Origin: Bdellovibrionales bacterium CG10_big_fil_rev_8_21_14_0_10_45_34
GTDB lineage: Bacteria; Bdellovibrionota; Bdellovibrionia; Bdellovibrionales; 1-14-0-10-45-34
Direction: 5' to 3'
Assembly: GCA_002778785.1 (NCBI GenBank)
Contig: PEZS01000009.1
Location: forward strand, 1 to 64,000
DNA: 64,000 bases
The notes beneath the pieces are model-generated. The model saw nothing but the letters and a program-made list of their open reading frames with translations, was not told the DNA's origin and made no database searches. Positions within the stretch are counted from its first letter, which is position 1. Each line of letters opens with the position of its first letter. Below, piece after piece: positions 45,455 to 58,238 of this stretch. A program made the position numbers and the translations under genes.

Positions 45455-46639
45455 TTGAAGACCAAAACTAAGAAATCGGTAAATACTAAGCCCGCTAAGT
45501 CCGGACGCTCGAAAACAAAGAAGTCGGAAAAGGGTCAAAGTGTGCGGCGATCCAGCCCACAGGTAGAAATTCTCGACGATACGGATAGCCGCTCGAATAA
45601 CCCTAAAGCGATTAACTCTTCAGTAGTCGCACCCGAAAGGTCGCCAATCAGGCAGTCGGAACCCTTTGAAAACTCCGACGAAGACACTGACTCTCTACTC
45701 ATTGAAGTTGATGATCAGGGGAGCAAAGATGATTCGATTGTGGCGTCCAGCGACGATGATATAATCGATGTGTCGGCAAAATCTAACCAGCAGCTGCCTG
45801 CGATTATTTCGGGGCCTGTTTCGACAGTCGACGCTCTCACCGCGTATTTGAATGAGATAAGAAAGTATCCACTGTTAACTCCCGAAGAGGAGCACGAACT
45901 CGCTATTAAGTATGCCGAGAAAGGCGACCAGGCGGCGGCTCAGCGCCTTGTAACAAGTAACCTACGTTTCGTTGTGAAGATTGCAGCTGAATACTCGCGC
46001 TTTGGTGCAAAGATGATTGACCTTGTTCAAGAAGGAAATGTCGGACTCATGCACGCAGTGAAGGAGTTTAACCCATATAAAGGTGTGAGGCTCATTACCT
46101 ACGCCGTGTGGTGGATTCGGGGATATATTAGAGAGTATTTGTTAAAGCAACATTCTATGGTTCGTATAGGGACCACTCACAATCAGAAGAAGCTGTTTTA
46201 TAATCTGCACCAAGAAGAAAAAAAGATGGAGGCTTTAGGAATGGAGCCTACCACCGCTTTGTTGAGCTCTCGTTTGGGAGTGCCAGAAAGAGATGTCGAG
46301 ATGATGCAGCAGCGACTTGGCGGCAAAGACATCAGTCTCGACCAGCCGGTCGATGAAGACAGCGGCACTCTACTTAAAGACCTACAAACTTCGTCGATGG
46401 AAGAATCTGTAGATGTACAGCTCGAGAAGTACGAACAAATTGAAATTTTAAATCAAATGATCGAGAAGCTTCGGCCCACCTTAAACGAAAAAGAAATCTT
46501 AATACTGGATCGCCGAATACTATCTGACGAGCCTCAAACTCTTCAAGAAATCGGAGATGCTGTGGGCATAACTCGCGAGCGTGCAAGACAACTTGAAGCC
46601 CGTATTCTCAAGCGCCTTAAAGAGTCGATGGAAGGTTAG
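45455..46639 (+). CDS. rpoH: RNA polymerase sigma-32-type factor with long N-extension
   Basis: Sigma-70 family factor of the RpoH group. Region 1.2/2.1 is ALTAYLNEIRKYPLLTPEEE near 130, region 2.2-2.4 DLVQEGNVGLMHAVKEFN then LITYAVWWIRGYIREYLL, the RpoH box QKKLFYNL near 245, and region 4 has LQEIGDAVGITRERARQLE. The first ~125 residues are a Lys/Ser/Asp-rich, disordered extension not seen in E. coli RpoH (284 residues). TTG at 45455 with AGGG upstream. It should direct heat-shock genes; the lon gene at the right edge is preceded by a sigma-32-like site. The group is set by the box and region 2. Confidence 0.86.
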   Translation: MKTKTKKSVNTKPAKSGRSKTKKSEKGQSVRRSSPQVEILDDTDSRSNNPKAINSSVVAPERSPIRQSEPFENSDEDTDSLLIEVDDQGSKDDSIVASSDDDIIDVSAKSNQQLPAIISGPVSTVDALTAYLNEIRKYPLLTPEEEHELAIKYAEKGDQAAAQRLVTSNLRFVVKIAAEYSRFGAKMIDLVQEGNVGLMHAVKEFNPYKGVRLITYAVWWIRGYIREYLLKQHSMVRIGTTHNQKKLFYNLHQEEKKMEALGMEPTTALLSSRLGVPERDVEMMQQRLGGKDISLDQPVDEDSGTLLKDLQTSSMEESVDVQLEKYEQIEILNQMIEKLRPTLNEKEILILDRRILSDEPQTLQEIGDAVGITRERARQLEARILKRLKESMEG

Positions 46640-46680: not shown

Positions 46681-46809
46681 TCAGAACTGCACAATCTTAG
46701 ACTTCTTTGCTTTTCGTGCAATGGCCGCAAGTGGCTGACTAAAAAGATCTTGGATACTAATTTTGTTGAAACCCGTATCATACTGCCATTCTATGCAGAT
46801 TTCTTTGAT
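46681..46809 (-). pseudogene. Startless coding fragment after brnA
   Basis: Minus-strand open stretch of about 42 codons without a start codon, reading IEWQYDTGFNKISIQDLF and on to KAKKSKIVQF-stop. Composition is protein-like. It overlaps the end of brnA. It may be a remnant of a third toxin-antitoxin gene or chance; no family is recognised. Confidence 0.3.
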
Positions 46810-47090
46810 GCAAACTTAGCAAGGATTTCATTAATAAGAGTCTGGTAGCCCTTTCCACTTCGAGATGCTGCCTTTCGGATTTTTTCTAAAACATCTGGGT
46901 CAATGCGAATAGCTATGAGCTGCCTATGGGAAGTGCCCAACGGAGGCCTGCCAACCCGCTTCATTCGGCTTAACTGCCCATCTGAAAGCTCATGAATATC
47001 TGAATAATCGATCTCATCGTCCGAAATATGCTTTACGCTCTTTTTTGTTTGCTTGCCTTGCACTGATGATACGGATTTTCGTCGTGCCAT
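46791..47090 (-). CDS. brnA: BrnA-like antitoxin
   Basis: 99-residue antitoxin of the BrnT/BrnA type II system: an N-terminal basic segment for toxin contact and a C-terminal ribbon-helix-helix DNA-binding part (IAIRIDPDVLEKIRKAAS, GYQTLINEIL). ATG at 47090 (AAGGAGAA about 6 bases upstream); ATG 47096 is closer to the site. Its 5' end overlaps the toxin gene by 77 bases. BrnA normally represses its own operon, and a palindromic site is present at the toxin start. Confidence 0.85.
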   Translation of the reverse strand: MARRKSVSSVQGKQTKKSVKHISDDEIDYSDIHELSDGQLSRMKRVGRPPLGTSHRQLIAIRIDPDVLEKIRKAASRSGKGYQTLINEILAKFASKKSA

Positions 47091-47298
47091 CTTCATTTCT
47101 CCTTAATGTGTAAGCAACAAGAAGGATTCTGTCCTTCAGTGATGCTCCGATACGCAAATACCGAGGTTCAAATTCTGAGTGACTAATGTCAGGACCATCC
47201 AACGCTTCTGAATCAAAAAACACGGCAGAAGCCTCTTCAAAACTGATGTCATGCTTTTTAAGATTGCTACGTGCCTTTCGGGCATCCCACTCAAACAT
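47014..47298 (-). CDS. brnT: BrnT-like toxin (RelE-fold ribonuclease)
   Basis: 94 residues of the BrnT family, a translation-blocking RNase. FEWDARKARSNLKKHDISFE at the N-terminus, then LRIGASLKDRILLVAYTLR and the basic RIISARQANKKERKAY end are the family pattern. Full-length and probably active. Toxin comes first, antitoxin second, the standard order. The overlap with brnA makes coupling likely. Alone in the region between rpoH and the flagellar operon. Confidence 0.9.
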   Translation of the reverse strand: MFEWDARKARSNLKKHDISFEEASAVFFDSEALDGPDISHSEFEPRYLRIGASLKDRILLVAYTLRRNEDGTTKIRIISARQANKKERKAYFGR

Positions 47299-47312: not shown

Positions 47313-47510
47313 TAAATTAAAGAGCAAAGAAAGTCCACTCCACTTTTACAAATTGTGCCACAAAGGGAATATAAGAAGACTAGGATCCAAAACAGCCCCC
47401 AAAGTGTGTTAGTTTGAAGAAACTTTAGAATGAAGATTCTATCAGAAGTGAATTCAAATCGTGCGGTTGGAGGATTTTTATAATACGAGGTTTACCTCAT
47501 GAATATTTCA

Positions 47511-47629
47511 GAAGGAGAAGCAATTGTTCCTTCAAATGCGAGTTCGGATTGGTGCAGTGCTCGCCCCTCGCGAGCGCTGCTGCCGAACGTATGTTCGAGT
47601 ATTTTAAGGAACTATTGCTTCTTCTCCGG
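47511..47629 (+). ncRNA. Long nested hairpin, candidate structured RNA or mobile-element remnant
   Basis: The 365-base gap 47299-47664 contains an almost continuous imperfect hairpin. Outer stem: 47517-47532 with 47606-47621, 15 of 16 pairs. Middle stem: GTTCGG (47542-47547) with CCGAAC (47583-47588). Inner stem: 47554-47564 with 47570-47580, 11 pairs including one G-U, around a 5-base loop. A TATAAT at 47479-47484 lies 32 bases upstream on the plus strand, with a GAGGT/ACCTC repeat between. No T-tract follows on either strand, so it is not a plain terminator of fliA. The strand is uncertain. The remainder of the gap shows nothing I can name. Confidence 0.5.
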
Positions 47630-47664
47630 TAGAATGCCACAGATGCGGCATATTCAATCACAGG

Positions 47665-48447
47665 TTAGGAGGCGATGTCACCGGCGTCGAGCGACTGCGC
47701 CAACTTCACTCTCAGTCTCGACACCGCTTGAGCATGAAGCTGTGAGACGCGGCTTTCGGTCACGCGCAAGACTTTACCAATTTCTTTAAGATTCAAATCT
47801 TCATAATAGTACAACGAGAGCACTAACCTTTGCTTTTCAGGAAGATCTTGAATCGACCGCATAACAATTTTTTTGATGTGCTTCACATTGAGCTGATTGT
47901 GCGGGTTCGACAACTTGCAGCTTTCTAGTAAATTCAAAATTGATTTCTTGTCGACGTTGCTAAAGGTAGAAGAATCATCAATAGAAAGTAGACTTACCGG
48001 ACGAACTTGATTGAGCAAGTCGTGAAAGTCTTCCATTGATACACCGAGCCTGTTAGCAATCTCCTCTTCTGTGGGAGTTCTATTAAGATCTTGCTCAAGG
48101 CGGGCTATTGTTCGATCGAGAAGCTTGGATTTGTCACGAACGCTTCGAGGCACCCAGTCTTGGGAGCGCAGTTCATCGAGAATCGCACCACGTATCCGAA
48201 ACTCTGCGTATGTTTTAAACGTGTTGTCTCTTGATGGATCATACTTTTCGATCGCATCCATAAGACCAATGACACCGCTTGAGATCAAATCGTCGAGCTC
48301 GATATTGGGTGGCAATCTGATGGCGATTTTTTGAGCAATAAACTTTATCAATGGTGCGTACTCAAGAATCAATTTGTCTTTTTGATCCCGAGTCAGTTTG
48401 CTCGGATCCTCTTTGTATTTCCTGAGTAGTGCGCTACTCTTTGACAT
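47665..48447 (-). CDS. fliA: Sigma-28 (FliA), flagellar late sigma factor
   Basis: Sigma factor for flagellin, chemotaxis and motor genes. Length 260. Region 2: YAPLIKFIAQKIAIRLP, LDDLISSGVIGLMDAIEKYD, FKTYAEFRIRGAILDELRSQD then WVPRSVRDKSK, the FliA hallmark; region 4: LPEKQRLVLSLYYYEDLNLK with EIGKVLRVTESRVSQLHAQA. It is the last gene of the flagellar operon and lies 127 bases from flhG. The order flhF-flhG-fliA is common in polar flagellates. ATG. Confidence 0.96.
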   Translation of the reverse strand: MSKSSALLRKYKEDPSKLTRDQKDKLILEYAPLIKFIAQKIAIRLPPNIELDDLISSGVIGLMDAIEKYDPSRDNTFKTYAEFRIRGAILDELRSQDWVPRSVRDKSKLLDRTIARLEQDLNRTPTEEEIANRLGVSMEDFHDLLNQVRPVSLLSIDDSSTFSNVDKKSILNLLESCKLSNPHNQLNVKHIKKIVMRSIQDLPEKQRLVLSLYYYEDLNLKEIGKVLRVTESRVSQLHAQAVSRLRVKLAQSLDAGDIAS

Positions 48448-57239: not shown

Positions 57240-58238
57240 CTAGTCCTCTATCTTGCGAATTAATTGAACTGCAGTATTTCCGTGACTTACCCCGTAGTAA
57301 CACTTGAAGCGAGTAACACCCTCTACCAGCACCTGGAGCTCACCACTTACATCTTGGCCAAGCGGTACGACATCCCCTACTTTGAAATTCATGAGATCCT
57401 TCATAGTGATGTTTGTTTCGCCAAGGTTCACAAGTATATCTAGCTCTGTGTCGAGCAATTGTTCTTTTATTGTCGAAGCCCACATTCTCTTATCCGTTTG
57501 GTCAGACTCGACTTGAAACCCCGTAGAGAGTTTTTGCTTTATGGGTTCGATAGTTGAATATGGAAGAACCAGGGTGATTGTTCCATTAGCGCTCTCTAAC
57601 TCGACGTCAAACGTCGATGCAATCACCACATCTGTAGGTGGCACAATACCCACAAACTGTGGATTGACCTCGGTCCTCACAAAGCTGCAGTCAATTTTGT
57701 AAACAGAGGCCCAAGCAGATTCTAAATCTTGAATGGCAAGTTCAACAACTTTTCTCACAATAGAGAGTTCAATAGGTGTGAACTCCTTGCCTTCAATTTT
57801 AGTATATGGGCGATCGTTTCCACCAAAGAAGTTATCTATTAATGCATAGGCCAATTTGCTTTCTATTACAAAAAGTGACGAGCCTCTTAAACCGTTGTAT
57901 CTCAATACGCTCATGCAAGTAGGCATTGGTAACGTATTGATGAACTCTCCAAACTTCAAAAAGTCCGTGCTGGCATGATTCAAACTGGCAATTCTTCTTA
58001 GTGCTGAAGATAGTGAAATTCGAAAAGAGCGCATAAAGCGCTCATAGATAACGTCAAGCTGAGGCAGGCGACCACGGATGATGCGATCTTGGCTGGTAAG
58101 ATCATATACGACGACTCCCTTATCGGGAGTGGTGGTAACGCCCCCGGCGCTATCGTCACTGGCGCCGCCGGAGCTGTCGCCTTCGGACACTGCGGCCAGG
58201 AGTGCATCTACTTCGCTCTGCGAGAGAACCTGATTCAT
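57240..58238 (-). CDS. fliM: Flagellar switch protein FliM
   Basis: 332 residues; couples CheY-P to the rotor. The CheY-binding start is LSQSEVDALLAAV, then RQLPQLDVIYERFMRSFRIS-like sequence (GRLPQLDVIYERFMRSF), IDNFFGGNDRPYT and the C-terminal SpoA domain (VNLGETNITMKDLMNFKVGD). Standard length. Directly follows fliL and precedes fliN. Confidence 0.96.
   Translation of the reverse strand: MNQVLSQSEVDALLAAVSEGDSSGGASDDSAGGVTTTPDKGVVVYDLTSQDRIIRGRLPQLDVIYERFMRSFRISLSSALRRIASLNHASTDFLKFGEFINTLPMPTCMSVLRYNGLRGSSLFVIESKLAYALIDNFFGGNDRPYTKIEGKEFTPIELSIVRKVVELAIQDLESAWASVYKIDCSFVRTEVNPQFVGIVPPTDVVIASTFDVELESANGTITLVLPYSTIEPIKQKLSTGFQVESDQTDKRMWASTIKEQLLDTELDILVNLGETNITMKDLMNFKVGDVVPLGQDVSGELQVLVEGVTRFKCYYGVSHGNTAVQLIRKIED

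Follow-up and report, generated by a model that had tools for sequence, protein, structure and literature searches.

A stable hairpin in the gap next to fliA

The window analysed here, a stretch of 64,000 nt at the start of contig PEZS01000009.1 of Bdellovibrionales bacterium CG10_big_fil_rev_8_21_14_0_10_45_34, contains a nested hairpin at positions 47511–47629, which raises the question whether this structure represents a regulatory RNA, an element belonging to the neighbouring fliA gene or a copy of a mobile DNA repeat. The fliA gene (47665–48447, − strand) was recognised by its match to TIGR02479 (FliA_WhiG, 273.8 bits with a cut-off of 189.6), and the hairpin starts 35 nt beyond its stop codon, with a BrnT/BrnA toxin-antitoxin pair on the other side. 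This type II pair (46791–47298, − strand) is located between the hairpin and a gene encoding a sigma-32-like sigma factor (45455–46639, + strand).

Folding of the region 47470–47660 confirmed that the hairpin is real, with −73.3 kcal/mol on the + strand (z = −6.32) and −70.2 kcal/mol on the − strand (z = −7.38), and none of 200 dinucleotide shuffles was as stable on either strand. When 47511–47629 was folded alone, the values were −60.5 (+) and −52.4 (−). The collinear outer, middle and inner stems with small internal loops described in the initial annotation were found upon folding of both strands, and consist of 12 + 7, 6 and 11 + 5 pairs, respectively. No other inverted repeat of ≥14 nt with a spacer of <300 nt was present between 44000 and 51000, and a more stable fold at 58081 is located within a coding ORF and was dismissed as ordinary. 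The reported absence of a T-tract also held, as neither strand has one after the full hairpin, as would be required of an intrinsic terminator, and the only terminator-like score came from one weak internal stem of 5 pairs.

The whole element copy (47511–47629, no strand assigned) consists of two outer arms around a conserved core. Within the left outer arm (47511–47537, + strand) the sequence is specific to this copy except for the innermost CTTCAAAT, and the inverted-repeat arms 47513–47537 and 47601–47625 are 25 nt long and 88% complementary, with the right outer arm (47603–47629, + strand) defined by the fold and by this inverted repeat. The core (47538–47602, + strand; positions 1–64 of our covariance model R1) scored 82.2 bits. 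It contains the left strand of an internal loop, CGAGTTCGG (47539–47547, +), which is nearly invariant across genomes while the flanking stems vary, an inner stem-loop GCAGTGCTCGC-CCCTC-GCGAGCGCTGC (47554–47580, +), and the right strand of the internal loop, AACGTATGTTCGAG (47586–47599, +), which corresponds to the family sequence AACGNATGTYTGAG. The inner stem-loop was assigned from the RNAalifold pair table and the per-genome consensus. The 88% pairing of its arms marks the window copy as slightly decayed among the members of the repeat family described below.

Copies and distribution of the repeat family

A search of the 3.06 Mb genome containing the window (G000) with the hairpin sequence identified six further copies with 82–90% identity, giving seven in total. 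The core is the part common to these copies, while the outer arms differ between copies and pair within most of them. Short motifs around GCGTATCTGCAGCAG and CCTGCAAAGAGACGCAA recur in the flanks of four G000 copies (L002, L003, L004 and L006) and may represent either a separate dispersed repeat or outer ends that have decayed; GCGTATCTGCAGCAG is absent from the window.

Cores related to these also occur in further families of the order. Training of model R1 used 22 cores of 64 nt, including that of the window, and hence the window copy matches it by construction, but R1 also scores in genomes outside the training set, such as G120, G130, G132 and G133. The element was detected with R1 in 30/141 Bdellovibrionales genomes, with just two weak matches elsewhere in the phylum, and where records with the core are named, they are MAGs of Bdellovibrionales or Pseudobdellovibrionaceae. 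Copy numbers reach at least 35 in G132 and 26 in G133. Several of the genomes are draft MAGs in which long palindromes are often located at contig ends, and many G119 contigs (L158–L162, L165, L166, L168, L170, L172 and L174) terminate in or just past an element, which suggests that the palindromes may break the assembly and that copies are undercounted.

The repeat was not recovered from phage and plasmid collections, nor by an exact-pattern search of IMG/VR, and carriage by phages or plasmids was therefore rejected. There was also no match in Rfam, either at the gathering score or at E ≤ 5, which led us to reject 6S RNA and other known RNAs; the earlier suggestion of a 6S-like RNA is further weakened in that copies in tandem gaps are not significantly biased in their orientation to transcription (34:50, p = 0.10). 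Likewise, the fliA loci of seven other genera lacked the hairpin and other copies are located beside unrelated genes, so that the proposal of a fliA 3′ element was abandoned, and we infer that the window copy has no fliA-specific role. Judging from the collections and literature searched, this palindromic repeat family is specific to the predatory-type Bdellovibrionales and new.

A conserved internal loop between variable stems

Comparison of 13 genomes showed that conservation is highest in the asymmetric internal loop, on its left strand (CGAGTTCGG) as well as its right strand (AACGNATGTYTGAG). The inner stem-loop co-varies, with different paired sequences substituted in different genera, and the core contains G-T pairs specific to the top strand in the RNAalifold pair table, which would also suit a functional RNA. 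The outer arms are 16–131 bp long and 94–100% complementary in most copies, yet their sequence differs from copy to copy; the longest mismatch-free arms reach 131 bp, with some of the longest arms located at the contig ends of draft assemblies. Six copies in G116 have arms of 27–40 bp with zero mismatches, and three copies in G119 (L156, L157 and L163) have arms of 83–91 bp with 99–100% complementarity and a further 400 bp of sequence on each side. Copies within several genomes have a common arm consensus, which indicates that the arms travel together with the core. A variant was found at five G059 loci (L032, L037, L042, L045 and L048), which has the ends in common with the element (TTCAAATGCGAGTTCGGA ... 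CGTATGTCTGAGTATTTGAA) but an inside that is different and longer.

Terminal inverted repeats and an empty site

In two genomes the core is located centrally within larger repeats of about 200–230 bp, with >60 matching places in G004 and >40 copies of a 230-bp repeat in G115. These repeats are multi-copy, non-coding and short, and have terminal inverted repeats (TIRs), and thus have the properties of miniature inverted-repeat transposable elements (MITEs), an assignment that applies to G004 and G115. The G115 TIR is TATACCAATCCGGTTTGA, and the elements end in TATACC..GGTATA, with TA at either end, and a target-site duplication exceeding TA was not detected.

An occupied and an empty version of one site were found by comparing G116 L210 with the orthologous G114 L366, which are ~80% identical on both sides. 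The spacer between the two convergent genes measures ~224 bp with the element in G116 and 43 bp in G114, where it contains neither core nor arms, which shows that core and arms come or go as one unit. As this is a single locus and is unpolarised, the difference may also reflect precise loss. At about 7–95 of G114 L366, ~1.7 kb from the empty site, there is another copy of the core, which is degraded and matches the model weakly. The initial annotation had also considered the remains of a small mobile element, and this suggestion is the one that gained support, from the seven copies in the genome, the order-wide family, the MITE forms in two genomes and the empty orthologous site.

The outer arms evolve in concert

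In G115, complementarity between the inner 31-bp arms is 96.5% within a copy versus 80.8% across copies, compared to 73.9% and 73.2%, respectively, for the outer TIRs of these elements. Only the arms adjacent to the core thus evolve in concert, as tested in this genome, and the terminal repeats of these MITEs serve as an internal control, where hairpin-adjacent arms are concerted and other repeats of the same element are not. Formal pair counting gave 99.5% paired cells in G115 and 96.0% in G119, with double changes at 18/31 and 40/45 arm pairs, respectively, which was matched by 0/500 shuffles, and none of the slid and shuffled controls came near the observed covariation.

Compensatory changes in relatives, which the initial annotation had named as a check on the hairpin, are therefore abundant, but their pattern favours template copying at the DNA level over selection on RNA. 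The arms in G115 have only 4 G-T and 2 A-C one-sided cells versus 598 Watson-Crick cells, and transversions, which cannot pass via a wobble pair, account for 25/56 double changes in A3 and 85/165 in A4, or roughly one half. The combination of few one-sided changes with this proportion of transversions points to homogenisation by template switching on DNA rather than classical RNA selection, and the arm covariation appears to derive largely from DNA copying. Arm mismatches in the first genome set comprised 45 G-T versus 31 A-C on the top strand; this asymmetry is not clear, and we did not regard it as decisive evidence for RNA. Template switching is known to homogenise the arms of inverted repeats and to yield multi-base compensatory changes (PMC8794818; PMC8604942), and a precedent for long perfect arms comes from palindromes in coding sequences of Nematomorpha mitochondria (PMC6649704). 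With dozens of copies per genome, the family provides a natural experiment on the evolution of long inverted repeats, and since covariation is usually taken as proof of a functional RNA, it also calls for caution in covariation-based RNA discovery.

Genomic context of the copies

For 157 copies with both neighbouring genes called, 33% were located in gaps between convergent genes and 13% between divergent genes, compared to 15% and 35% of background gaps, respectively, with gene calls made by a simple ORF script and a small background of 48 gaps. This distribution is consistent with a repeat that can persist behind genes but is disfavoured in promoters. A neighbouring gene common to L004, L039 and other loci was followed as a lead to a transposase, but its sequence reads as a sigma-54 response-regulator type protein, and as this is an abundant class, its recurrence was taken as coincidence.

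Origin and maintenance of the hairpin

We conclude that the hairpin next to fliA probably belongs to a MITE/REPIN-like family of mobile DNA repeats in Bdellovibrionales, which are dispersed and non-autonomous and the arms of which evolve in concert. This is supported by the dispersal of the copies, their restriction to one order, the MITE forms with outer TIRs in two genomes, the empty site, the near-perfect complementarity of the arms within copies that differ from each other, and the finding that no two of 80 copies in three congeners had the same arrangement of both flanking genes. The conserved asymmetric internal loop, located between the variable inner stem-loop and the long variable outer arms, is presumably recognised by a transposition enzyme that works on the folded strand. 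Template switching at the hairpin during replication, or foldback copying at transposition, would keep the arms identical, with each new mutation being converted into a paired change by template copying. Promoter regions may be intolerant of insertions, which would explain why these are found 3′ of genes.

A structured regulatory RNA family acting in cis or in trans, with arm pairing maintained by selection for an RNA duplex (for instance to stabilise 3′ ends or to serve as a substrate of RNase III), would likewise explain the very strong covariation of the arms, the top-strand G-T pairs of the core, the conserved bases of the internal loop and the location of most copies 3′ of genes. We consider it unlikely, as G-U intermediates are few, transversions make up about half of the double changes, the mismatches lack a clear strand asymmetry, orientation to transcription is without preference, the site is not conserved at fliA, and mismatch-free arms of up to 131 bp would be hard to keep by selection alone. 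The arms of several G000 copies end in A-rich and T-rich sequences (AAAAGCGTCAG..CTGACGCTTTT and GCAAAAGCCTC..GAGGCTTTTGC), which, together with the enrichment between convergent genes, made it attractive to view the copies as bidirectional terminators, formed when the conserved core inserted into the loops of terminator hairpins that were already present. The empty site in G114, which has no pre-existing arms, however argues against such insertion, and with a window copy lacking a T-tract, arms that travel with the core as judged by their within-genome consensus, and arm lengths of 50–130 bp that are not terminator-like, the terminator explanation is very improbable.

Within the preferred interpretation of a mobile repeat, each jump might involve a single-stranded intermediate that is copied by self-priming (foldback), so that new copies would start with perfect arms, as opposed to correction of the arms in place when the chromosome replicates. 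The arms are near-perfect even in copies with outer TIRs that have diverged by ~26%, and priming could be provided by the folded core, but no intermediate, enzyme or orthologous pair of copies was found that separates foldback from in-place correction, and we regard foldback as possible but doubtful. Orthologous copies that could distinguish in-place from birth-time correction were sought in three congeners, and among their 80 copies there was no pair with both flanking genes shared in the same arrangement. Equally speculatively, the element might represent a novel type of small mobile DNA, with the conserved, strand-specific internal loop of the folded single strand as its site of action and self-primed foldback renewing the arms at each jump, which would provide every copy with newly paired arms of its own.

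Candidate enzymes and comparison with known repeats

The Y1_Tnp domain (PF01797; RAYT and IS200/IS605) is absent from G116 and G130–G134, all of which carry the element, and is present in others including G129. Its absence from several high-copy genomes led us to reject mobilisation by a RAYT/REP system, and IS630 mobilisation was rejected as DDE_3 (IS630-type) is absent from all 14 genomes tested, so that neither of the two transposase types searched tracks the element.

The general kind of repeat is already known (MITE/REPIN-like), but its layout, with a conserved internal loop and variable arms evolving in concert, is unusual. REPIN/REP elements with RAYT are short extragenic hairpins with a variable segment, frequent compensatory changes and a predicted hairpin in ssDNA or mRNA (Bertels and Rainey 2011, PMC3116915), and resemble the element in their extragenic location, their many copies per genome and their variable hairpin segment with compensatory changes. 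REPINs are however conserved at both ends and variable in the middle, and have a cognate RAYT, whereas here the internal loop is conserved, the outer arms and inner stem vary, and Y1_Tnp is missing from several high-copy genomes.

MITEs and ERIC/IRU-type palindromes are also non-coding, intergenic, palindromic and multi-copy, and true TIRs are present in G004 and G115, but the TIRs of the element differ between genomes or are absent, the core-adjacent arms co-vary copy by copy, and no cognate transposase was identified in the searches for Y1_Tnp and DDE_3. The structure of integron attC sites is conserved more than their sequence, and they act as a folded single strand with internal loops, as proposed here; the outermost R boxes of attC are conserved, whereas conservation of the element is lowest in its outermost arms. 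Hairpins maintained by template switching have similar near-perfect inverted arms and multi-base compensatory changes (PMC8794818), and the mitochondrial palindromes of Nematomorpha have similarly long perfect arms (PMC6649704), but both concern individual or organellar genes, compared to dispersed bacterial repeats with one conserved core and arms of up to ~130 bp.

The element is a potential marker of mobile-repeat activity in Bdellovibrionales. Between the two species represented by L148 (G131) and L357 (G133), the genes flanking an element differ by an inversion that has its breakpoint at the element, possibly as a result of recombination between inverted copies.
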